Origin: Gammaproteobacteria bacterium
Lineage (GTDB): Bacteria; Pseudomonadota; Gammaproteobacteria; Eutrophobiales; Eutrophobiaceae
Assembly (NCBI GenBank): GCA_016193395.1
Contig: JACPSH010000046.1
Coordinates: 1-64,000, forward strand
Direction of reading: 5' to 3'
Length of the DNA stretch: 64,000 nt
Numbering within the stretch: position 1 is the stretch's first letter; each line of letters opens with the position of its first letter. The translations under genes and the position numbers were made by a program. A model generated the notes under the pieces. The model made no database searches. It was not told the DNA's origin and saw only the letters and a list, made by a program, of their open reading frames with translations. Of this stretch, positions 4,023-37,072 are shown piece after piece.

Positions 4023-6458
4023 ATGGCTTGCCGCCGCAGGACCCCGCCGGTAAGAGAAGAGGAGAAAGTGCACGTGCCTTCCCTGGCGCTGAAAAATCTC
4101 GGCAGCCGGATCGTCGTTTTCTTTTCGCTGCTGCTGGCGGCCGTGCTTGCCGTTGTCTTCGCGCTGGTGACGACCTCCAGCTACCAGATCGCTCGCCAGC
4201 AGAACAGCGAGGAACTCGCGCTCGGCGAACGCGTGTTCCGCCAGCTCCTCACGCAAAACCGCAACCAGTTGACCCAGACGGCGCGGATCCTGACCGCCGA
4301 TTTCGCGTTCCGCGAGGCCGTGACCAGCAACGATCTCGATACGGTCCTGTCGGCGCTGGACAATTTCGGCCGGCGCATCGACGCCGACACCATGATGCTG
4401 ATCTCGCTGGACGGGATTCTTGCCGCGGATACGCTGCACCCGGAGCGCGTCGGGCAATCGGCGCCGGTGGGGGAGCTGATCCGCGTGGCCGAGCTTCAGG
4501 GTTCGGCGGCCAGCGTGATGCGGATGCGCGACGAGATCTACCAGGTCGTCGTTGTCCCGGTGCTGGCGCCCGAGCCGGTCGCCTGGGTGACGTTGGGGTT
4601 CATCATTGACAACGCTCTCGCCCTGGATTTGCAGAAACTCACATCGTTGCAGGTCAGCTTTCTCAGCCGCGAGGAAGACGGGCACTGGTCGCTGCTTGCC
4701 TCCACCCAGCCGGCGCCGGAGCAAGCCGCGCTTAGCAGGAGTTTCAACGAAGGATATTTGGGAGACGATGCGGAGCGGTTGTTGTTACCGGGATTCGCAT
4801 CCCTGGTCTCGCCGCTGGAGGAGAAAGGCACAGTGGTCGCGGTATTGCAGCGTTCCATCGATCAGGCCGTGGCGCGTTTCGACCCCCTGCGCGCCACGCT
4901 CCTGGTGCTCGCCATGGTCAGCTTGCTGATCACGGTTGCCGGCAGCGTGGTCATTGCGCGCCGGATTACCCGCCCGATCAACGCGCTCGCCGGCATCGCC
5001 CGCCGCATCCAGGCGGGAGATTACACCGAGGGCGCGGTCGAGGGCGACCCCGGCGAGATCGGCGCGCTCGCCGCGAGCTTCAACCACATGCGTAAGGCCA
5101 TTGCCTCGCGCGAATCGGAGATCCGGCGCCTGGCCTTCGAAGACACGCTGACCGGCCTGCCGAACCGCGCAATGTTCAACGCGCAATTGAACCAGGTGTC
5201 GAAACTGGCGCAGCGCACCGGCGAGCCGTTCAGCGTCCTGGTCATCGACCTGGATCGCTTCAAGATTATCAATGACACGCTCGGGCACGAGGCCGGGGAC
5301 CAGGTGCTGCAGGTCGTCGCGGGACGCCTGCGCGGCGTCACCCGCGATGCCGACATCCTCGCCCGATTCGGCGGCGACGAATTCGTGGTGTTGCTCCCGG
5401 CAACCGACAGGCAGCGGGTCGGAGCCATCGTGACCCGGATCCTTCTCGCCCTCGATCAGCCCATCCAGATTGAGAACCAGCCCGTGGACACCGGCGGCAG
5501 TATCGGCGTCGCCAGTTTCCCTGGCGATGGCAAGGACCCGAGCGTGCTGATGCGGCGCGCGGACATCGCGATGTACTCGGCCAAGCGATCACACACGGGG
5601 TTTGCGTCGTACGACGCGAGTCTCGACGAGCACCGGCAGGAGCACCTCCACCTGCTCGGCGAACTGCGCAAGGCGGTCGACGAGAACGAATTGCAGCTGT
5701 ACTTCCAGCCCAAGGTGGATCTGGTCGCCCGCGAGACCGTGGGCGTTGAGGCCTTAGTCCGCTGGCACCACTCCGTTCGCGGCCTGATCCCGCCGTCGGA
5801 ATTCATCCCGTTTGCCGAGCACACCGGCTCCATTCGCATCGTGACCCGCTGGGTGTTGCGCGAAGCGATACGTCAGTGTGGTACATGGCTGGCGCGCGGC
5901 CTTTCGCTCCGGATGTCCCTCAACATTTCGGCGCGCGACCTGGTCGATGCGGAACTCCCCGACGCGGTGGATGCCGAACTACGCCGGAGCAAGGTGCCGC
6001 CGGGCCTGGTGTGTCTGGAGATCACCGAAAGCGCGTTGATGGAGGATCCCGGGCAGGCGCAGGAGACCGTGCGCCGGCTGCACAAACTTGGGGTTCAACT
6101 TGCGATCGACGATTACGGCATTGGCCATTCCTCGCTTGCTTACGTAAAGAATCTGCCGGTCAACGAGCTCAAGATTGACCGCACGTTTGTCATGAACCTG
6201 TCCTCGAAGAACGCGGACAAGGCCATCGTGCGATCCGCCGTCGAACTGGGACACAACCTGGGATTGCGCGTCGTCGCGGAGGGAGTGGAGAGCGAGCGGG
6301 AGCTGCAACTGCTGCGCGAACTCCGCTGCGACCTGGCGCAGGGCTATCTGATCAGCAAGCCGTTGCCGGAGCGGGATTTTGATGCGTGGCTCGAAAAAGG
6401 GAGCTGGTTGGTCCAGCGTCGCGCACCACGTGACCGCGGGGAGATCGCGCATGTCTGA
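4023..6458 (+). CDS. Membrane-bound GGDEF-EAL c-di-GMP turnover protein
   Basis: 811 residues: a membrane segment near residues 32-52, a periplasmic sensor region to about 285, a second membrane segment, HAMP (~310-365), GGDEF (motif at 450-454) and EAL (576-578). The GGDEF domain has the inhibitory RxxD site (RDAD, five residues before the motif), so cyclase activity with product inhibition is plausible. The EAL domain keeps EALVR, NISARD, EITES, DDYGIGHSS and AEGVES, the set expected for a working phosphodiesterase. GTG at 4068 is an alternative start. It overlaps the next gene and forms an operon with a barrel-like protein and a cupredoxin. Confidence 0.92.
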   Translation: MACRRRTPPVREEEKVHVPSLALKNLGSRIVVFFSLLLAAVLAVVFALVTTSSYQIARQQNSEELALGERVFRQLLTQNRNQLTQTARILTADFAFREAVTSNDLDTVLSALDNFGRRIDADTMMLISLDGILAADTLHPERVGQSAPVGELIRVAELQGSAASVMRMRDEIYQVVVVPVLAPEPVAWVTLGFIIDNALALDLQKLTSLQVSFLSREEDGHWSLLASTQPAPEQAALSRSFNEGYLGDDAERLLLPGFASLVSPLEEKGTVVAVLQRSIDQAVARFDPLRATLLVLAMVSLLITVAGSVVIARRITRPINALAGIARRIQAGDYTEGAVEGDPGEIGALAASFNHMRKAIASRESEIRRLAFEDTLTGLPNRAMFNAQLNQVSKLAQRTGEPFSVLVIDLDRFKIINDTLGHEAGDQVLQVVAGRLRGVTRDADILARFGGDEFVVLLPATDRQRVGAIVTRILLALDQPIQIENQPVDTGGSIGVASFPGDGKDPSVLMRRADIAMYSAKRSHTGFASYDASLDEHRQEHLHLLGELRKAVDENELQLYFQPKVDLVARETVGVEALVRWHHSVRGLIPPSEFIPFAEHTGSIRIVTRWVLREAIRQCGTWLARGLSLRMSLNISARDLVDAELPDAVDAELRRSKVPPGLVCLEITESALMEDPGQAQETVRRLHKLGVQLAIDDYGIGHSSLAYVKNLPVNELKIDRTFVMNLSSKNADKAIVRSAVELGHNLGLRVVAEGVESERELQLLRELRCDLAQGYLISKPLPERDFDAWLEKGSWLVQRRAPRDRGEIAHV

Positions 6459-15243: not shown

Positions 15244-16461
15244 ATGACCCGAACCTGCCTCATCGTCGGAGCGAGCCACGCGGGCTCGCAACTGGCGATC
15301 AGTCTGCGCCAGGAAGGCTGGGACGGCCGCATCGTCCTCATCGGCGAAGAGCCGCATTTGCCCTATCACCGGCCGCCGCTGTCCAAGGAATACCTCGCGG
15401 GCCGGAAGTCCGTGGAAGAAATCTCGATCCGTCCCGCCGCCGTATACGGGAAGGCGCAAATCGAATTGCTGCCCGGCCGGCAGGTGAATCGAATTGACCG
15501 CGCCGCCAGGCGAATCATCCTGGAGGGCAATGAAGCGCTCGGCTACGACAAGCTGGCGCTCGCCATTGGTTCACGCGCGCGGCGCGTGGATCTGCCCGGG
15601 GCCGATCTGGCCGGCGTGCATTACCTGCGCACGATCGCGGACGTCGATCGCATCCGCGCGGACATCTCCCACGACGGCCGTGCCGTGATCGTCGGCGGCG
15701 GATACATCGGGCTCGAAACCGCCGCGGTGCTGCGCAAGCTGGGCATGGACGTGACCGTTGTCGAAATGATGGAGCGCGTCATGCAGCGCGTGACGGCGCC
15801 GGAAGTCTCCGCCTTCTTCACCCGCATCCACGCGGAGGAGGGTGTGACGGTTCTGTGCGGCGCGGGCGTCGCGGGATTCGACGGCGCGGGAAAGGTCGAA
15901 TCCGTGCGGCTGAGCGACGGACGCATCCTGCCGGCGGAACTGGTCATCATCGGCGTAGGCATCGTCCCCAATATCGAACTCGCGCGCGCTGCGGGATTGA
16001 CAGTGGACAACGGTATCGTCGTCGACGAATACGCATGTACATCTGATCCCGATATCGTCGCGGCGGGGGACTGCAGCTGGTACTACAACGCGCTCTATCA
16101 GCGCTGGATCCGACTCGAATCCGTTCAGAACGCCACCGAGCAGGCGCGCATCGCCGCAGCGACCCTCTGCGGGAAAGCGCAGGACTACAACGCGCTGCCG
16201 TGGTTCTGGTCCGATCAATACGATCTGAAGCTCCAGATCGCCGGCTTGTCCCAGGGCTACGATGAAATCGTGACGCGCGGGGATGCGAAGGAGGGTCGCA
16301 GCTTCGCCGCCTTCTACCTTAAACAGGGGACAGTGATCGCAGTGGATGCCGTCAACAAGGCCGCGGAATTCATGCAGGGCAAGAAGCTGATTACCGAGAA
16401 GAGACGCATGGACACGGCAAGGCTCGCCGACACTTCGATCGCCATGCGCGATATCGCATAG
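15244..16461 (+). CDS. FAD-dependent ferredoxin/rubredoxin-type reductase
   Basis: 405 residues. The FAD motif (IVGASHAGSQLAISLRQ), LPYHRPPLSKEYL, the NAD motif VIVGGGYIGLETAAVLRKLG and the VAAGDCS motif followed by the ESVQNATEQARIAA stretch define the oxygenase-coupled ferredoxin reductase family (putidaredoxin and rhodocoxin reductases). It passes electrons from NAD(P)H to a 2Fe-2S ferredoxin, and the ferredoxin at 8060 is the nearest candidate partner. No P450 or ring hydroxylase gene is in the window, so the terminal acceptor is unknown. ATG 15244 was chosen because the FAD motif begins at residue 5. Confidence 0.92.
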   Translation: MTRTCLIVGASHAGSQLAISLRQEGWDGRIVLIGEEPHLPYHRPPLSKEYLAGRKSVEEISIRPAAVYGKAQIELLPGRQVNRIDRAARRIILEGNEALGYDKLALAIGSRARRVDLPGADLAGVHYLRTIADVDRIRADISHDGRAVIVGGGYIGLETAAVLRKLGMDVTVVEMMERVMQRVTAPEVSAFFTRIHAEEGVTVLCGAGVAGFDGAGKVESVRLSDGRILPAELVIIGVGIVPNIELARAAGLTVDNGIVVDEYACTSDPDIVAAGDCSWYYNALYQRWIRLESVQNATEQARIAAATLCGKAQDYNALPWFWSDQYDLKLQIAGLSQGYDEIVTRGDAKEGRSFAAFYLKQGTVIAVDAVNKAAEFMQGKKLITEKRRMDTARLADTSIAMRDIA

Positions 16462-16685
16462 GCGGGTGGAAACGTTGCTGTGCTGTCCGCGCCGGGGCTA
16501 ATATTGAGGGCATATCGGCATGTGGCCGGCCTTGCGATGCGAATCGACTGGAGATATACCGCTCATGCAATGGGGATATAGCGTGGATTCAAGTGGATGT
16601 TAAGCCCCGCGTGCGTTATACCGCCGCCGTCCGTGTTACAACGCCGCTCCCATCCACCTATTTATAATAGTTGTGCCCCACACAG

Positions 16686-16720
16686 TTGACACGTCTATTT
16701 ATCGTATATACGATAAATAG
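16686..16720 (+). promoter_or_regulatory. brnTA promoter overlapped by a perfect 26-bp palindromic operator
   Basis: TTGACA at 16686-16691, a 17-base spacer and TACGAT at 16709-16714 form a good sigma-70 promoter. The bases 16695-16720 are a perfect palindrome with half-site CTATTTATCGTAT that covers spacer and minus-10 and ends one base before the GTG start of brnT. This is the expected place for autorepression by the ribbon-helix-helix antitoxin BrnA or its complex with BrnT. The leader would be very short or absent. Confidence 0.8.
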
Positions 16721-16999
16721 GTGGCCATCACTTATGACCCGGACAAGAACGAGAAGAACATTGCCCTGCGGGGCATCTCGTTCGATCGGGCGGCCGACTT
16801 CGACTGGTCGAGCGCGTTAGTCGTTGAAGATACCCGCAAAGACTACGGCGAACCTCGGTTTCAGGCTCTCGGATCCATTGAAGGGAGGCTGCATGTGTTG
16901 GTGTTCTCTCCACGGGCAGGCGATACACACGTCATCAGCCTGCGGAAAGCGAACAAACGTGAGGTGAAGAGATATGAAGCGAAACAAGCGCAATCCTGA
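16721..16999 (+). CDS. brnT: BrnT family ribonuclease toxin
   Basis: 92 residues. The family pattern is plain: ITYDPDKNEKNIALRGISFDRA at the start, DTRKDYGEPRF in the middle, and HVLVFSPR...HVISLRKANKREVKRYE at the end. BrnT toxins are RelE-fold RNases that stop translation and are neutralised by BrnA. The start is GTG at 16721 directly after the operator palindrome. The 3' end overlaps brnA by 26 bases, toxin first, as in known brnTA operons. It lies in an integron cassette. Confidence 0.93.
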   Translation: MAITYDPDKNEKNIALRGISFDRAADFDWSSALVVEDTRKDYGEPRFQALGSIEGRLHVLVFSPRAGDTHVISLRKANKREVKRYEAKQAQS

Positions 17000-17252
17000 G
17001 CGCGCCGGACGCGATAACCCGGTTTGGACCAAGGAAACCTTCGCGCGTGCGCGTCCGGCGCGCGAAGTTCTGCCCAAACTGTTTGGCAACGCCGCCGCGG
17101 AGGAAATGCTTCGGCCCAGGGGGCGTCCCAAAACGGGCAACGCCCGCGTCGCCATTTCGCTGCGGCTGCCCCCCGAAACTCTGGCGCGCTGGAAAGCCAC
17201 GGGGCCAGGATGGCAGACCCGAATGGCCGAAAAACTGAAGAGAGCGGTTTAA
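16974..17252 (+). CDS. brnA: BrnA family antitoxin
   Basis: 92 residues, rich in basic residues. The C-terminal part KTGNARVAISLRLPPETLARWK...WQTRMAEKLKRAV is the ribbon-helix-helix DNA-binding region of BrnA antitoxins (the RLPPE stretch is characteristic); the N-terminal part would wrap the toxin. It starts inside brnT and ends ten bases before attC site 1. It is expected to bind the palindrome at 16695-16720 as a dimer. Confidence 0.9.
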   Translation: MKRNKRNPERAGRDNPVWTKETFARARPAREVLPKLFGNAAAEEMLRPRGRPKTGNARVAISLRLPPETLARWKATGPGWQTRMAEKLKRAV

Positions 17253-17261
17253 AGAAGTGGG

Positions 17262-17333
17262 GCACAACCAGCGGTTCCACGCGACGATCCTCGCGCTGCG
17301 CGTTCGGCCCGCGCGTGAACCGCGACGTTGGGC
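17262..17333 (+). other. attC recombination site 1
   Basis: R'' GCACAAC (17262-17268), L'' GCGGTTCCACGCG (17271-17283), a 28-base variable loop, L' CGCGTGAACCGC (17312-17323) and R' GTTGGGC (17327-17333, exact GTTRRRY). L'' and L' pair completely except for one extra C in L'', the extrahelical base that marks attC folded strands. The 2-3 base spacers between boxes also fit. It separates the brnTA cassette from the transporter cassette. Confidence 0.82.
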
Positions 17334-18017
17334 GTGATCGAGACGATGGACGATTGCTGCATCGAAAAGACCTCCGCCATCGAGCGGCTGCGCGAGCGCC
17401 AAACGGCGACTCTTCGCCTCGTTCTGCTTGTGAACGCTGCGATGTTCGTCGTAGAGCTCGCGTCGGGCTTGCTTGCCGGGTCCGTGGCCCTGCTCGCGGA
17501 CTCCCTCGACATGCTCGGCGACGCGCTCGTCTATGGCTTCAGTCTCTACGTCGTCGCGCGCGGTCCCCTCTGGAAAGCGCAAGCCGCGGTGGCCAAGGCA
17601 GTGGTGATGGGGCTGTTCGGCGTGTTCGTCTTTGGGCAGCTCGTGTACAAGCTTCTCTATCCTCAGCTCCCGACGGTCGAGACCATGGGTGGTGTCGGTG
17701 CTCTTGCACTCGTCGCGAACGGCGTTTGCTTTGCCATGCTTTGGCGCCACCGTGCCGAGGACATCAACATGCGGTCGGTCTGGCTCTGCTCGCGAAACGA
17801 CCTCATCGCTAACGTCTCGGTGTTGTTGGCGGCGTTGGCGGTGTGGATGACGCTTTCTCCTTGGCCGGACATCGTGGTTGGCGCGCTTATCTGCGCCGTG
17901 TTCCTTCGTTCGGCGTTCCTTGTTGCTGGTGAAGCGCGTGCCGAGCTGGGGCTGAATCACGCCCAACCACCCGCTGCAGCGGACGGGCCGCAAGCGGCGC
18001 GGCGCTGAGCGGCAACG
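17328..18017 (+). mobile_element. Integron-type gene cassette 2 (cation transporter)
   Basis: The start GTTGGGCGTGAT at 17327-17338 is exactly complementary to ATCACGCCCAAC at 17956-17967, the R'' side of attC site 2. This is the same circular-cassette signature as in cassette 1. The cassette is almost filled by one open reading frame, with 18 bases before its ATG, as is normal for cassettes. Confidence 0.78.
17346..18008 (+). CDS. CDF-like cation efflux / cation transporter family protein
   Basis: 220 residues with five to six membrane segments. The first half has LVLLVNAAMFVVELASGLLAGS and LLADSLDMLGDALVYGFSLY, the motif that carries the zinc-site Asp residues of cation diffusion facilitators. 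A second similar half has AEDINMRSVWLCSRNDLIANVSVLLAALAVWMT. The C-terminal cytoplasmic domain of classical CDF exporters is missing, as in the short cation-transporter group. It would move Zn2+, Co2+ or similar ions out of the cell. The end of the gene runs through attC site 2, so the last residues are encoded by the recombination site. Confidence 0.85.
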   Translation: MDDCCIEKTSAIERLRERQTATLRLVLLVNAAMFVVELASGLLAGSVALLADSLDMLGDALVYGFSLYVVARGPLWKAQAAVAKAVVMGLFGVFVFGQLVYKLLYPQLPTVETMGGVGALALVANGVCFAMLWRHRAEDINMRSVWLCSRNDLIANVSVLLAALAVWMTLSPWPDIVVGALICAVFLRSAFLVAGEARAELGLNHAQPPAAADGPQAARR

Positions 18018-18023
18018 TTAGAA
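17961..18023 (+). other. attC recombination site 2
   Basis: R'' GCCCAAC (exact RYYYAAC), L'' CCGCTGCAGCG (17971-17981), a ~21-base loop, L' CGCTGAGCGG (18003-18012) and R' GTTAGAA (one base off GTTRRRY). L'' and L' pair perfectly apart from one extrahelical G in L'', the canonical attC feature. Half of the site is inside the 3' end of the transporter frame. Confidence 0.8.
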
Positions 18024-18039
18024 CGCGGCTCTATCCCGG

Positions 18040-18264
18040 GTGGCAGTGAAGGCCGCCCTGGAGACGCACCTGCGGCATGATCCCGGCAAGACCAGTCGCA
18101 GTCGCATCAAACGGCTACGTGGCTTGTCCCGACCTCAATACCGGTTGCGGGCCGGTGACATCCGGGTGTTCTATGACATTGTTGATGGCGCCGTCGAAGT
18201 ACTCGCCATCGTTCCAAAGTCGGAGACCTTAGCATGGCTAGATCAGTTCGGAAAACTTCAGTAA
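18040..18264 (+). pseudogene. RelE/ParE-family toxin, 5'-truncated at the cassette boundary
   Basis: 74 residues from the only usable start (GTG 18040). The sequence VKAALETHLRHDPGKTSRSR...YRLRAGDIRVFYDIVDGAVEVLAIV matches the central and C-terminal part of RelE/ParE toxins, but the usual first ~25 residues (beta strand and first helix) are missing. Upstream in frame is a stop created by the attC R' sequence (TAG at 18019-18021), so the head of the gene appears to have been replaced when the cassette joined. The antitoxin gene overlaps its 3' end by 31 bases. It may be inactive, or a shorter active form. Confidence 0.6.
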
Positions 18265-18506
18265 AGAAAGTGCCGCTCGCACGGGTCAAGGATGATCTGT
18301 CGCGCTACCTGAAGGAAGCGGCGAATCGTGAGATCGTGATTACGCGGCATGGCAAGCCGGCCGGGGTGCTTATAGGTTTTAGATCCGAGGATGAATGGCT
18401 GGAGTATCGCCTGGAGAATGACCCGCGCTTCCTTGCGCGGATCGCCAGGGCGCGGGCTAGTATGCGCGCTCGCCGCGGAGTTCAACTTGAGGATGTTGAG
18501 CTGTAA
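18234..18506 (+). CDS. Phd/YefM-family antitoxin
   Basis: 90 residues. VPLARVKDDLSRYLKEAANREIVITRHGKPAGVLIGF is the Phd/YefM DNA-binding domain in nearly complete form; the C-terminal tail (RASMRARRGVQLEDVEL) is the flexible toxin-wrapping part. It overlaps the toxin gene, in toxin-first order. With a truncated toxin it could still act as an antidote or repressor in trans. No attC was found after it by eye. Confidence 0.88.
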   Translation: MARSVRKTSVKKVPLARVKDDLSRYLKEAANREIVITRHGKPAGVLIGFRSEDEWLEYRLENDPRFLARIARARASMRARRGVQLEDVEL

Positions 18507-18588
18507 TCAGTCTGTATCTGCGCGATTGTGCCGACAATGCACGGAAGCTCAGGTTCAATTGGAAGTAGAAGGTGTATAACCTTTCACT

Positions 18589-18616
18589 TCAGCCGACCGC
18601 CTTTGGCGGCGGCTGA
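18589..18616. terminator. Hairpin after the Phd antitoxin gene
   Basis: TCAGCCGACCGCC and GGCGGCGGCTGA pair around a TTT loop with one bulged A, followed by TTTCATT. It fits a weak terminator. The single bulge also recalls an attC stem, but the flanking R boxes do not match. Confidence 0.45.
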
Positions 18617-18731
18617 TTTCATTGTCAAGCGCATGGCGTATGGCGGCTTCACGGTCGACGTCGACGCCTAGCGGCTGAATCTCTCCCTGGCCCGGGTTGT
18701 CTTATCCGGTGACCTGGGCGAGTATCCCGCC

Positions 18732-19451
18732 ATGGAACGCCCGGTCCGGATCAAAACCATCGGCATCCTCGGCGGCATGAGCGATCAGGCCACGGCCGAG
18801 TACTACCGCCTCATCAACGCGGCCGTGAACGAGCGTCTGGGCGGGTGGGACATCGCCGAGACCCTCATCGCCGGCTGCAACTTCGGAAACATCGAGCACT
18901 TCGTCCGGAACGATCTCTGGGAGGAGGCCGGCGAGTATCTTGCCGGCAAGGCCCGCGCGCTAGAGCGGGCGGGCGCCGATCTGCTGGTCTGCGTTTCCAA
19001 TACGGCGCATCGGGTCTCCGACCGGTTCTGCGCGGGGCTCGGCATTCCCTTTCTGCACATTGCCGATCCCACGGGCGCGGCGATCCGCGCGGCCGGACTG
19101 TCGCGCGTCGCCCTGCTCGGAACGAAGGCGACCATGTCGGCGCCGTTCCTGAGGGACTATTACAGCTCGAAGTTCGGGATTGATATCGTTGTGCCCGACG
19201 AGGAGGGACAGGTGCTGGTAAACCGCGTCATCTGGGACGAACTGGTGCGCGGGGCAGTGACCCAGGATTCGAAGCAGGCCATTCTGCGGGTTTGCGATCG
19301 CCTGCGGGCGCACGGCGCCCAGGGCGTGATCCTCGGCTGCACGGAGCTGTTCCTGTTGATCGTGCAGGCCGATCGGCCGGACTTTCCGATGTTCGACACC
19401 ACCTCGCTGCACGTCGCCGCCATCGTCGAGCAGGCATTGTCCACGACGTGA
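18732..19451 (+). CDS. Aspartate/glutamate racemase family protein
   Basis: 239 residues: IGILGGMSDQATAEYYRLIN at the start, CNFGNIE, the first active-site region LLVCVSNTAHRV and the second GVILGCTELFLLI. The overall pattern is that of PLP-independent Asp/Glu racemases, which use two cysteines. The second cysteine is in place; the first lies three residues before Asn (C-V-S-N), whereas the usual motif has none or one residue between. The enzyme may therefore have a changed mechanism or substrate. Its stop overlaps the start of the antiporter gene (GTGA). Confidence 0.85.
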   Translation: MERPVRIKTIGILGGMSDQATAEYYRLINAAVNERLGGWDIAETLIAGCNFGNIEHFVRNDLWEEAGEYLAGKARALERAGADLLVCVSNTAHRVSDRFCAGLGIPFLHIADPTGAAIRAAGLSRVALLGTKATMSAPFLRDYYSSKFGIDIVVPDEEGQVLVNRVIWDELVRGAVTQDSKQAILRVCDRLRAHGAQGVILGCTELFLLIVQADRPDFPMFDTTSLHVAAIVEQALSTT

Positions 19452-20377
19452 GCGACTATCTCGCCCTGCTACTTGGCGTCGTATTCGCAGGCGCGGGCGG
19501 CGAGCTGTTCGTCCGCGGCGCCGTCGGACTTGCGCGCTGGCTGCGGATCTCTCCGGGGATCATCGGCGCGACGGTCGCTGCCTTTGCGACTTCGAGCCCG
19601 GAACTCTCGGTGGCGATCAGTTCCGCGCTGGCCGGCGACCCGGCGATCGCACTCGGCGACGGTCTGGGCAGCAACGTCGTCAACGTGGCATTGATCCTGG
19701 GCGCGGTCCTTCTCATCTCCGGGATCCATGCGCCCCGCCAAAGTGTGAAGCGGGATTTTCCGGTGGCACTGCTCGTCCCCGTGGTGACGGCTGCACTGGT
19801 CGTCGACGGCGAATTATCCCGGATCGACGGGTCTTTGATGCTCGGTATGTTCCTCGCCTGGATCTCGGCTACGGTCATCGAGGCACGCCGTCAACACAGT
19901 GCCGCCGGGCAGGTCCTCGGCGAGCACAAGCGGGGCCTGGCGATCGCCGCCTGCGTCGTGGGACTCGCTTTCCTTGTCAGCGCGGGGATCCTAATCGTCA
20001 GGGGTGCCAAGGGCATAGCCGTAGATTTCGGCATCGACGAATTCATCGTCGGGGCAACGGTGGTCGCTATCGGCACTTCCGCTCCCGAGCTGGCGACTTC
20101 CATCGTCGCCAAGCTGCGCGGTCATGACGAAGTCGGACTTGGGACAATCCTGGGCAGCAACATCTTCAACGGCCTGTTCATCATTTCCGTGGCGGCGGTG
20201 ATTCATCCCATTGCCGTCGCGTGGCGGGAAATACTCATCGCGCTGGTCTTCGGTGTCGTTTCGCTGGCGTTCACGATTCCGCCGGCGTCGGGATACATCG
20301 AACGCAGGCGCGGCATCGCCCTGTTGATGCTGTACACCGCCTACCTGGGGGTCTTGTTTCGATGGAGAACGGCCTGA
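19448..20377 (+). CDS. Calcium/sodium antiporter (CaCA family, YrbG-like)
   Basis: 309 residues from GTG 19448, which overlaps the racemase stop by four bases. About ten membrane helices are visible. The two inverted family repeats carry ATSSPELSVAISSAL and IGTSAPELATSIVAKLRG, each paired with an Asn motif (GLGSNVVNVALILG and ILGSNIFNGLFIIS). These are the cation-binding repeats of K+-independent Na+/Ca2+ exchangers. The protein would exchange Ca2+ for Na+ or H+ across the inner membrane. Longer in-frame starts inside the racemase gene are not used. Confidence 0.92.
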   Translation: MSDYLALLLGVVFAGAGGELFVRGAVGLARWLRISPGIIGATVAAFATSSPELSVAISSALAGDPAIALGDGLGSNVVNVALILGAVLLISGIHAPRQSVKRDFPVALLVPVVTAALVVDGELSRIDGSLMLGMFLAWISATVIEARRQHSAAGQVLGEHKRGLAIAACVVGLAFLVSAGILIVRGAKGIAVDFGIDEFIVGATVVAIGTSAPELATSIVAKLRGHDEVGLGTILGSNIFNGLFIISVAAVIHPIAVAWREILIALVFGVVSLAFTIPPASGYIERRRGIALLMLYTAYLGVLFRWRTA

Positions 20378-20391
20378 GCGGAGGAGGGATC

Positions 20392-20799
20392 ATGCATACG
20401 GGAAGCTGTCTTTGCGGAAGCATCCGCTACGAAGTTGACTCCGAACTCGGCGACTTCGGCTTTTGTCATTGCAGGAGTTGCCGCAAGGCGAGCGGATCGG
20501 CGTTTTCCGCCAATGCGTCGGTGGATCGCAAGCGTATCCGTTTTCCGGGCGGGACGGCGACGCTGCGCGCGTACGAATCGTCGCCGGGTAAGTTCAGGGC
20601 ATTCTGCTCGCAGTGCGGATCGCCGATCTACGCATGGCTCGAATCGAGCCGGGACACGCTGCGGCTGCGGCTGGGAAGCCTGGATACGCCTTATACCGGA
20701 CAGCCGAAATTCCACATCTTCGTGTCCGACAAGGCGCCGTGGGACACGATCACCGACGAGGTTCCACAATATCCGGAATGGCGGTCCAGCCCGGGTTAG
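20392..20799 (+). CDS. GFA family (CENP-V-like) zinc protein
   Basis: 135 residues from ATG 20392, preceded by GAGGAGGG. Zinc ligands are visible in TGSCLCGSIRY, CHCRSCRKASGS and FCSQCGSPIY, the arrangement of the glutathione-dependent formaldehyde-activating enzyme (Gfa) fold. Most family members have no proven Gfa activity and are named only by fold. It follows the antiporter by 14 bases on the same strand and may be co-transcribed. Confidence 0.92.
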   Translation: MHTGSCLCGSIRYEVDSELGDFGFCHCRSCRKASGSAFSANASVDRKRIRFPGGTATLRAYESSPGKFRAFCSQCGSPIYAWLESSRDTLRLRLGSLDTPYTGQPKFHIFVSDKAPWDTITDEVPQYPEWRSSPG

Positions 20800-20929
20800 T
20801 CATCGACTGCGAATTGTTGAGCGGTCGGGTGGCACCGGGTACCTTCGTCCGCGCGCAGCGGAAGGGCCCCGCTGGGGGAGGGTTGGATCGAGCACGGACG
20901 GAGGTGCCCGGTGACAGGACCCGGCCGCG

Positions 20930-22999
20930 TCAGCACTTGCGTTTCTTGAGCCGCGGTTCGCCGGTGCGCACCCAATAATCGAGCCGCTTCTGCTCTTCGG
21001 GGCTCACGGTCTTGATACGTTCCTTGAGTTCCACCATGGCGTAGTCCGCGATTTCCCATTTACCGAGGGTGCAGGCGGTGGCCATGATACCGGCGGAATT
21101 GGACGCAAGCCGGCGGTTACGTTCGGCGTCGCTGATATCGACGTCCTCGGTCAGCCGGTACGCCAGATCGTAATGGAAATACGACTCCGGATATTTGTAC
21201 TGATCCCAGTAGAAATCCCCGAGCGCGCGCGCGACCACCTCCTTGTCGATACTCCCGCCAAGTTCAGCGAGGTCGTTTTTCGGGCTTTGCTGAAGGATAG
21301 CCAGCGCGCGCAGCCAGACCTGTTCCTGCTCCTTCGGCCGCTTGTTGGTCTGGTCATTGACGCCCATCTGGTAGAGCACGATCGCGATTGCCGGATGATT
21401 CGGGCCGTAGGCCTGCTCCGCGGTCGCGAGCGACTGTTGCAGCATCTGATCGGTTTCCGCGAAGGCGTCCTTTTTGGCCGGCGGCGAAACGCGATCCGGC
21501 TGCGCGGTTCGGCGCTCCGCGGTGCGCGGGGATTCGGAAGGCGCCGCAGCCTCGTCGGTAGTGCCGGGGAGGAATCTGTCAAGTACGCCGTTCTGGTAGA
21601 GCACGAAGATCAGTGCGGCGAGGCCGACCAGCGAAACCGCCCAGGCGCCTCCCGACTTGCGCTGAACCCTGCCCGGCTGCATGGAGTCATCGGGGACAGG
21701 CGCCGCCGCCGGCATCTCCCGGGCGGCCGGCCTGGCCCGGGGCGGGGACGGCGCCGGACTGGCGGGCGTGCCAGTCACGTCGGATGTGAGCATGTGAACG
21801 ATTGCGTTGCGCAACCACACCTTCTCGGCGCGCACCAGCGATTCCCCCAGCTCGACGGAGCCGCGGTCAGTCCGGACGACCACACTGCCGGCATCGATGT
21901 TGTACTGGCCGAGGAACTTCGCCGCGCCGATCAACTTCGGCGCCACCCGTCGCAACTGCTCGCGATGCTTCAGGCTCAGGTTGCCTGAATCGCGCAAGAC
22001 CTGTTCGGCCAGTGTGTCGGGGTTGTCGGTTTTCGAGCCCGTCGTTTCGACTTCCTCGATCTCGGGCGCAGGAAAATCCAGCGTCCTGACGCCGAAGAAA
22101 CCCTGCTTCCGGATCTGTACCCCGGCAGGCGACACGGTAACCCGCTGCCGCGATGTGGCTGCCCGCAACATTGCGAGCAATGCCCCGCCGACCGGGAGCG
22201 CAAGGAAGAACAGGCCGATAAAGCCGACGAAAAACCAGTTTTCGACGCCGAACCCGTCCTCCAGCATCGGGCGGAGGAACCCGAAAAGAACGAACCCCGC
22301 GAGAATCAGCGCGCCAATCAGTCCGGCAACGGGCGCACCGGCGATCCCTGCGGGCGGGATCTCTATGACGCTGGTGGAGCGGGGTCCACCATACTGGATC
22401 GTGCACACGGCCCGCGGCGGTTGGGCAGGAAGCGGCGTTGCAATGTGGAGCCGCCGGGCGCGCGCCTGGACCGACTCATCCAGCGTGCCGGCCTCGCGTA
22501 CGACTTCCTCGCTGCCGGTGAGGTCGTGGATTGCCAGGCCGAAGAACTTGGCGGTTTCCTCGGCCATTCTCCGCGATTCGTCAAAATCCCTCGACATACC
22601 GCCCGACACACTGAGGCCCTCGCCCCTGATCAGGACCGGGAAGACGATGTAGGTACTGTTCTTGCTGCGGCGCACTTCCCTGGTGACGATCACGTGCGCG
22701 TCCCGGCCGATTTGATAGGGCGTGCTGAAGAACGGCACAAGCAGCCCCCACCACGAGGTAAGAGTACGCCGGCGCCGGTCGAGGATTGTTCCGGAGCGCC
22801 CGAACACGAAGCCCGCGCCGACGAGCGCGAACACGCCTCCCACCAGTGCGCCGACCCAGGGTTCACCGGACGTTTTCATGCCGTCCGGCGGTGAGAGAAA
22901 CAGGAAGACCAACAGCAGTCCCATGCCGAGAAACGGCAGGCCGAAAAGAGCGAGGAAACCCCCGCCGTGCGTGATCTTTTTGATATCCGGGTCCGACAC
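20930..22999 (-). CDS. Large membrane protein with C-terminal TPR-like region, unknown function
   Basis: 689 residues that I cannot assign to a named family. Two membrane helices lie at ~14-70, a beta-rich cytoplasmic region follows (ILDRRRRTLTSWWGLLVPF is typical of DUF-type PH-like domains), then two more helices near 225-285 and a second region repeating that plan. A Pro/Ala-rich linker precedes a single helix (~465-485, GGAWAVSLVGLAALIFVLYQ). The last ~150 residues contain TPR-like helices (AEQAYGPNHPAIAIVLYQMG). The gene is convergent with the GFA gene and lies 17 bases from the M20 peptidase gene. Confidence 0.7.
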   Translation of the reverse strand: MSDPDIKKITHGGGFLALFGLPFLGMGLLLVFLFLSPPDGMKTSGEPWVGALVGGVFALVGAGFVFGRSGTILDRRRRTLTSWWGLLVPFFSTPYQIGRDAHVIVTREVRRSKNSTYIVFPVLIRGEGLSVSGGMSRDFDESRRMAEETAKFFGLAIHDLTGSEEVVREAGTLDESVQARARRLHIATPLPAQPPRAVCTIQYGGPRSTSVIEIPPAGIAGAPVAGLIGALILAGFVLFGFLRPMLEDGFGVENWFFVGFIGLFFLALPVGGALLAMLRAATSRQRVTVSPAGVQIRKQGFFGVRTLDFPAPEIEEVETTGSKTDNPDTLAEQVLRDSGNLSLKHREQLRRVAPKLIGAAKFLGQYNIDAGSVVVRTDRGSVELGESLVRAEKVWLRNAIVHMLTSDVTGTPASPAPSPPRARPAAREMPAAAPVPDDSMQPGRVQRKSGGAWAVSLVGLAALIFVLYQNGVLDRFLPGTTDEAAAPSESPRTAERRTAQPDRVSPPAKKDAFAETDQMLQQSLATAEQAYGPNHPAIAIVLYQMGVNDQTNKRPKEQEQVWLRALAILQQSPKNDLAELGGSIDKEVVARALGDFYWDQYKYPESYFHYDLAYRLTEDVDISDAERNRRLASNSAGIMATACTLGKWEIADYAMVELKERIKTVSPEEQKRLDYWVRTGEPRLKKRKC

Positions 23000-23016
23000 G
23001 CGGACCTCCAGACTGC

Positions 23017-24324
23017 TTATTTCGTCAGGTAGTCGACGGCGATTGCAACCATGGCGCGCACGCCGACGATCAGTGCGTTCTCATTAATATAGAACAACGG
23101 CGAGTGGTTCGGCGCCGCTTCCCAGTCTCCGACGCCTTCCTTGTTGATGCCGAGAAAGAAATACACGCCGGGGATGCGTTCCTGGAAGCGCGAGAAATCC
23201 TCGGCGCCCGCGATTACGCCGATTGCCTTGAAGCGATTGGCGCCAGCGGCCCAGGCAAGCGATGGGGACATACGCCCGGTCAAGGCGGGATCGTTATAGG
23301 TCACCGGTGCGTAGGGCTCGATCCGGACTTCGGCGCTGGCGCCCGCGCTGCTGGCGATATCCATTACCGTGCGCCGGACCCGCGCCTGGATGTCTTCCTG
23401 CATCGCGCGGTCGAACGTGCGGATGGTGCCCTCGATTTCCACGTTGTCCGGGATGATGTTGCCGCGGTTGCCGCCGTGGATGCTGCCGGCCGAGATCACG
23501 GCGGGCGCCAGAGTCAGATCGACCTGGCGGCTCGTGATGGTCTGCAGCGCCAGCAGGATCTGGGCGGCGATCGTGATGGGATCGACGCCGCGCCATGGCA
23601 TGGAGGCATGCGTCTGCTGGCCCCTGATGGTGATCGCCAGTTCATCCGCAGCGGCCATGGCGCCTTCCGGCTTCACGTACAGGCGGCCGGTCTCCAGAGG
23701 CAGCACGTGCAAACCGAAAATCGCCTCTGGCGCATCCGGGCCATCCAGCACACCCTCCGCGATCATGAGTTTCGCTCCGCCTTCCTCGCCTTCGGGCGGA
23801 CTCTCCTCGGCGGGCTGGAAGATGAACTTCACCGTGCCGGGCAATTGCTCGCGAACCCCGGCCAGCGCTTCGGCGGCTCCCATCAGTATGGCGACGTGGG
23901 CGTCGTGGCCGCAGGCGTGCATGACGCCGGTTTCCTGCCCCTTCCACATGGTTTTCACCTTCGAGGCGAAGGGCAGACCCTCCGGCTCGGCCACCGGCAG
24001 GGCGTCCATGTCGGCGCGCAGGGCAACGACCGGCCCGGGCCTGCCTCCGCGCAGCGTGCCGACAACGCCGGTATAAGCGACCGCGGTGCGAACTTCCATG
24101 TCGAGCGTGCGCAGATGATCGGCCACGAGTTTCGCGGTGCGCACCTCACGGTTGCCGAGCTCAGGGTGCTCGTGGATATTGCGCCGCCATGCAATAACCT
24201 TCGCCGCAACGCCGTCCAGCGCCGGCTCGATTTGCGTCTTCAAATCCCCGGCCGAGAGCACTCCCGGGGCAAGAACGGCGGACAGAAAAATGGCGGCATG
24301 GCAGAGACACGGCAGTCTGCTCAT
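23017..24324 (-). CDS. Exported M20 family amidohydrolase (hippurate hydrolase / AmhX-like)
   Basis: 435 residues from ATG 24324; residues 1-25 are a signal peptide (AAIFLSAVLAPGVLSA). Family marks are RRNIHEHPELGNRE, ALRADMDALPVAE, HACGHDAHVAILMGAA (metal-binding Cys/His), FQPAEESPPEGEEGGA with the catalytic Glu, and the late GAEDFSRF. These di-metal enzymes release amino acids or IAA-type acids from N-acyl conjugates. Periplasmic location is predicted. It lies 11 bases downstream of dacB on the same strand, so the two may be co-transcribed. Confidence 0.93.
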   Translation of the reverse strand: MSRLPCLCHAAIFLSAVLAPGVLSAGDLKTQIEPALDGVAAKVIAWRRNIHEHPELGNREVRTAKLVADHLRTLDMEVRTAVAYTGVVGTLRGGRPGPVVALRADMDALPVAEPEGLPFASKVKTMWKGQETGVMHACGHDAHVAILMGAAEALAGVREQLPGTVKFIFQPAEESPPEGEEGGAKLMIAEGVLDGPDAPEAIFGLHVLPLETGRLYVKPEGAMAAADELAITIRGQQTHASMPWRGVDPITIAAQILLALQTITSRQVDLTLAPAVISAGSIHGGNRGNIIPDNVEIEGTIRTFDRAMQEDIQARVRRTVMDIASSAGASAEVRIEPYAPVTYNDPALTGRMSPSLAWAAGANRFKAIGVIAGAEDFSRFQERIPGVYFFLGINKEGVGDWEAAPNHSPLFYINENALIVGVRAMVAIAVDYLTK

Positions 24325-36850: not shown

Positions 36851-36942
36851 AGAGCCTCCATTTGCGGGCCATCCGCCCGCTGTTCGTCCAGCGTGGCCGG
36901 GGTTGGGACATCACGGTCCGCCCCGGTCCCGTTGCGACCGTT

Positions 36943-36994
36943 CTAACAGGTTGATGCAAAAGTCCGTCCATGGACTTTTGCATCAACCTGTTAG
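36943..36994. repeat. Perfect 23-bp-arm palindrome (CTAACAGGTTGATGC family)
   Basis: CTAACAGGTTGATGC followed by AAAAGTCC at 36943-36965 is exactly complementary to 36972-36994, with GTCCAT as the loop. It lies between hsp20 and the next gene, 93 bases after the hsp20 stop. The TTTTGCATCAACCTGTTAG end is like the TTTTTCAACATCTTGTTAG sequence at 35482. Confidence 0.75.
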
Positions 36995-37072
36995 GGCCCG
37001 ACGCCCCCGCTCCGCCAACCGCCGTCAATTTCGTATACTGTCCCCGGATATGCCGCGCACCGGGGGAGCCGC

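Follow-up and report, generated by a model that had tools for sequence, protein, structure and literature searches.

A cluster of integron cassettes lacking an integrase gene and probably headed by an orphan attI site in a gammaproteobacterial chromosome

Integrase-less integron cassettes (CALINs) are common (PMC9024848). A typical CALIN has at least two attC sites and cassettes in one orientation without an intI gene nearby, and it is accepted that CALIN attC sites can be excised in trans by an integrase (PMC9668308; PMC12444791). The Shewanella prophage M16-3 carries one complete integron and, in addition, one CALIN at whose head the same attI is found (PMC9892861). Other chromosomal arrays with a truncated or absent intI are the decayed integrons and CALINs of Xanthomonas, where the integron occupies the ancestral ilvD locus and CALINs are found at relatively conserved positions (PMC12444791). 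An attI can also be displaced from intI in the delta-attI-type cassettes, in which a partial attI, still usable by IntI, replaces attC at the 3' end of the cassette (PMC12901181).

Here we describe a locus in a 64-kb window, the whole stretch of DNA that was analysed (positions 1 to 64,000 of contig JACPSH010000046.1, assembly GCA_016193395.1, Gammaproteobacteria bacterium; a draft of 60 contigs). With considerable confidence, we interpret it as an attI-headed CALIN, which consists of an attI, two intact cassettes, one with brnTA and one with a cation efflux gene, and a probable third cassette with parE/phd and a lost attC, without intI. Like a typical CALIN, it bears two attC sites and cassettes in one orientation with no intI nearby, so the label fits, but its first element is an attI-like site. 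Such a feature would escape IntegronFinder, which detects no attI outside class 1. Just like the Shewanella prophage, the source genome combines a complete integron with an attI-headed CALIN. However, both Shewanella arrays reside in one prophage and share the same attI, whereas the source genome has separate chromosomal loci and two intI-less attI copies, and the cognate attI is 62% identical. Unlike in Xanthomonas, an intact-looking intI is present alongside the several loci, and in contrast to the delta-attI cassettes, the attI in the window stands ahead of cassette 1 and borders on the chromosome. The attI-headed CALIN is thus already known from one published precedent, the Shewanella prophage M16-3, and the window provides a good new example.

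All features described below lie on the forward strand. Cassette 1 (16670..17326, 657 bp, brnTA) opens with the core site GTTGTGC and cassette 2 (17327..18016, 690 bp, cation efflux) with GTTGGGC, the boundaries being taken from the core sites. The absence of intI from the window, as the earlier note had claimed, was borne out by a TIGR02249 search, which found no integron integrase in the 64-kb window or elsewhere on its contig (C37). The earlier note had also proposed to look for intI elsewhere and to search the whole genome for attC sites. An intI on contig C5 (C5:38454-39398) scored 465 bits against a cut-off of 265, has an open frame with readable R, HxxR, GH and Y motifs, and seemingly encodes an intact IntI. 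A second integron integrase on C34 (C34:148757-149510; L039, L081), 50-60% identical to the C5 IntI, is split into two frames, with a pair of attC sites on the side of its attI; this locus is a decayed second integron of a different IntI lineage. The covariance model located attC sites only on C5, C1, C31, C34, C27 and C37, with eight on C5 and two to three each on C1, C31, C34 and C27. TIGR02249 did not match any integrase on C11 or C27. The window array thus sits in a genome whose resident integron looks active and has attC sites of the same type.

What lies directly to the left of cassette 1 distinguishes this locus. The attI-like sequence there, like the probable third cassette to the right and the integrase on another contig, goes beyond what the earlier note had seen. 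The attI-like site (16615..16669) is composed of a 52-bp unit (16615-16666) and three extra bases, ATA (16667-16669), that separate it from the first core site. When the genome was searched with 3 kb around the locus, the unit turned out to be identical at 50/52 positions (96%) to C27:148-199 (L040). This second intI-less attI copy is followed by GTTAGATC and then by a brnTA cassette different from that in the window, and it heads an array with at least three attC sites. One ORF just behind a C27 attC (L040:2398-3202) is 95% identical to G019:C56:7822-8626 in another genus of this family, where the background identity is 65-75%, and is a probable recent cassette transfer judging from this identity. 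Compared with the attI of C5, the window unit shares 32/52 positions without gaps (62%). This identity was reached by none of 200,000 shuffles (maximum 29), and among 640 kb of fetched sequence the highest score of any unrelated stretch was 29/52. The arrangement GYTATACCGC...GTGTTAYAAC...TTATA|GTT is common to the copies, and in C5 it immediately precedes the first cassette, with the start of intI about 95 bp away. GTTAY and the core site are 32 nt apart in both C5 and C27, and 35 nt apart in the window, where ATA is added; by our own count the spacing is 32 nt in the attI1 of one class 1 integron.

Allowing two mismatches, the attI pattern occurs in exactly three places in 53 family genomes, namely C5, C27 and the window, all of them in the source genome and directly before a cassette. 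Since the pattern was drawn from these copies and is fitted to them, its weight lies in its absence from the other 52 genomes. It was not found in viral contigs, an exact 28-bp core of the unit had no match in genome_contigs, and no unit similar to the window attI was detected near other IntI relatives among the fetched loci. We read the 52-bp unit as a putative attI, a divergent paralogue of the attI in C5. About 40% of the positions differ between the two, so this assignment depends on the anchored blocks, the spacing and the position rather than on close identity. The unit is homologous to an attI that adjoins an intI but does not itself adjoin one: between the end of a reductase gene at 16461 and the attI start at 16615, neither intI nor a remnant of it was found, and we call the site an orphan for this reason. 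Since a brnTA cassette follows the unit in the window as well as on C27, and CTATTTAT-type boxes occur in both copies, its 3' end could consist in part of operator sequence. A brnTA-linked leader as an explanation of the unit is less likely, as the unit occurs on C5 without brnTA and is lacking in the brnTA homologue of the relative G036. The paralogous attI, together with the 88% identity of the first attC site to an attC of the resident array (C5:41876-41940), places the window locus in the integron family of C5.

The surroundings of the array differ among relatives. In G019:C4 and G003:C108, the left (window 8-16.46 kb) and right (23.02-26 kb) flanks are collinear with the window, but are separated by about 0.5 kb with one small gene instead of 6.5 kb. 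The block 16468-23020, which holds the attI, the cassettes, an Asp/Glu racemase, a Na/Ca exchanger, a GFA enzyme and a TPR protein, is thus variable. The vertical conservation in all relatives that the earlier note had named as evidence against captured cassettes was not observed, the block being absent at the same place in these two syntenic genomes. The compared relatives belong to other genera, which limits the view of recent cassette turnover. The small gene between their flanks, which we take to be PH-domain-like, was not found elsewhere in the source genome in a search run without a positive control. A similar picture emerged around the other orphan attI. C27 overlaps C11 by 54 bp, and genes of C11 and a methyltransferase-like gene of C27 are about 0.5 kb apart in G019:C84, whereas the same interval in the source genome spans about 8 kb and is headed by the orphan attI. 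Within the window block, a sequence of 110-140 bp (20789-20928) is repeated at 83-88% identity on C4, C48 (twice) and C28 and several times in G003, and by this distribution is apparently a member of an interspersed repeat family.

We considered whether a resident IntI could have put circular cassettes into an ordinary non-attI site, an attG-type insertion by which CALINs can arise de novo. Such insertion has been documented (Loot et al. 2024, as cited in PMC12444791), an intact-looking IntI is present in the genome, and the absence of the block from two relatives would be expected of an insertion of this kind as well. The target, however, would be a sequence unrelated to attI or attC, and the 52 bp to the left of cassette 1 are attI-like, recurring before the C27 array and, more distantly, at the cognate attI of C5 but in no other genome of the family. 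The earlier note had described the host sequence as an ordinary chromosomal interval; the host is chromosomal indeed, yet cassette 1 docks on sequence homologous to the resident attI and the interval is not ordinary in this respect. The attG-type insertion is the main alternative and ranks second, but we consider it unlikely, and it fits less well than the attI-headed CALIN.

It is less probable still, and in our view very doubtful, that a fragment of the C5 array was relocated by homologous recombination or transposition, or that the locus is a product of misassembly. The 88% identity between the attC sites could be taken as a trace of such a move, and the assembly is a draft of 60 contigs. 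However, both flanks lie on one 75-kb contig and are syntenic with the relatives on either side, the window attI is closer to that of C27 than to that of C5, and no cassette gene of C5 is duplicated at the window locus.

The attI-headed CALIN further depends on the attC sites, for which we constructed a covariance model (model R1) of our own, not that of IntegronFinder. It was given the canonical structure and built from 12 attC sites that aligned without shifts, taken from the rest of the genome, relatives and class 1 integrons on plasmids, with no window sequence included. The model also recovered attC sites outside its training set on C5, C31, G019 and plasmids. In the window, it matched attC1 (17262..17333; R'' GCACAAC, R' GTTGGGC) with 68.6 bits (E 2.4e-14) and attC2 (17961..18023; R'' GCCCAAC, R' GTTAGAA) with 34.6 bits (E 4.4e-6), and no third site anywhere in the 64 kb at E-values of up to 5. 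The scores were strong where the earlier note had allowed that they might fall far below threshold, and both sites lie where it had placed them, according to the model and a motif scan. Both have RYYYAAC/GTTRRRY boxes, with one purine within YYY in the R'' of attC1, paired inner arms and an extrahelical base, which the motif scan assigned to the L'' arm of each site, in line with the single base per inner stem seen earlier. An Rfam search of the window gave no match. Chance palindromes or transcription terminators in a GC-rich genome, attC sites being palindromic themselves, can practically be discarded as an explanation, refuted by these held-out covariance scores and by the concordance of boxes, spacers, extrahelical base and circle complementarity. 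A near-perfect 56-bp palindrome at 36941-36996 (TTCTAACAGGTTGATGCAAAAGTCC...GGACTTTTGCATCAACCTGTTAGGG) has attC-like boxes but no covariance match and is possibly a terminator or a mobile-element end.

The cassette starts bear the trace expected of a circular form. As the earlier note had observed, the start of each cassette is complementary to the R'' region at its own end, and we found this complementarity to be exact over 12 nt in both (GTTGTGCCCCAC/GTGGGGCACAAC and GTTGGGCGTGAT/ATCACGCCCAAC). In the intact C5 array, it extends over 8-14 nt in seven of the eight cassettes, and reads 1 in the eighth, where the predicted boundary is one base off. The 12 nt in the window are thus at the high end of the range in the resident array, whereas several cassettes of C27 and C31 retain just 2-5 nt, and the window cassettes are well preserved by this measure. 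Beside the C31 array, an ORF (L077, 925-1743) looks transposase-like by eye.

The genes in the two cassettes are those that the earlier note had proposed for an integrase-less cluster, and brnT, brnA and the cation efflux gene all gave Pfam matches above the cut-off. Cassette 1 encodes the BrnT toxin (16721..16999, GTG start; PF04365, E 2.3e-23) and the BrnA antitoxin (16974..17252; PF14384, E 2.3e-17). Cassette 2 encodes a CDF-type cation efflux transporter (17346..18008; PF01545, E 4.7e-17), the frame of which opens at TTG 17328, with ATG 17346 as the likelier start. Ahead of brnT, within 16686..16720, a promoter-like site TTGACA-17-TACGAT (16686-16714) overlaps a perfect 26-nt palindrome (16695-16720, self-match), which is likely the operator at which BrnA would act as autorepressor. 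The sequence of the promoter and palindrome is also recognisable in the G036 homologue. With both domains, the promoter and the predicted autoregulatory site, the pair has the features of a BrnTA type II toxin-antitoxin system. As the cassette has its own promoter and operator, brnTA could be expressed without an integron promoter and may serve as a stabilising toxin-antitoxin cassette that selects against loss. The -10 box ends 7 nt ahead of the GTG start of brnT (16709-16723), so the transcript may be leaderless. The locus had no match in phages, and its match to plasmids was limited to the cation-transporter part at about 70%.

A third cassette probably follows (18017..18506), without a recognisable attC. 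It contains a ParE-like toxin gene (18040-18264; PF05016, a sub-threshold match), which opens 23 nt past the first base of the core site ending attC2, and a Phd/YefM antitoxin gene (18234-18506; PF02604, above the cut-off). In G019 (L042), the parE/phd homologue is itself a cassette flanked by two attC sites (5257-5346 and 5931-5990), and the array to which it belongs has an intI of its own. The covariance model found no attC above noise for the window copy. A hairpin at 18573-18633 (CAGCCGAC...CGGCTGA) has attC-like spacing but unpaired outer arms; in a search of 2.4 kb with the filters switched off it scored 11.8 bits (E 0.06), which is not significant, and as a remnant of attC3 it is suggestive only. 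From position and homology, parE/phd is likely a third cassette whose attC has decayed.

How could such an array have formed? The boundaries, attC folds and circle-closing complementarity suggest that IntI would have closed each cassette into a circle via its attC and inserted the circles through recombination of attC with attI, or with another attC, at G^TTRRRY, with the newest cassette entering first in line at the attI. The C5 integrase could still act in trans and excise the cassettes. The window attI may be a poor target for further insertions, since its body is set apart from the core site by the three additional bases. The array itself could be either the relic of a second integron minus its intI or a segment of attI plus cassettes copied to a new place; neither a remnant of intI nor a donor was found. 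The window and C27 copies of attI are near-identical and yet their left flanks differ abruptly, which favours a shared recent origin or copying. We also entertain, as an unlikely scenario, a distributed integron. In it, the C5 integrase would serve several dispersed attI sites in trans, with cassettes captured and swapped at several chromosomal loci, and the 96%-identical attI of the window and C27 would have dispersed as units sharply bounded at a G|TT, the integrase itself being a possible agent.

Two orphan attI copies in one genome are what adds interest to this attI-headed CALIN. They are recognisable because the genome keeps a cognate attI beside intI, and they suggest that two separate CALINs originated from an attI. 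We suggest deriving the attI of each resident intI and searching the remaining genome for orphan copies. The genome also offers a natural system to ask whether one integrase acts on several attI copies in trans.
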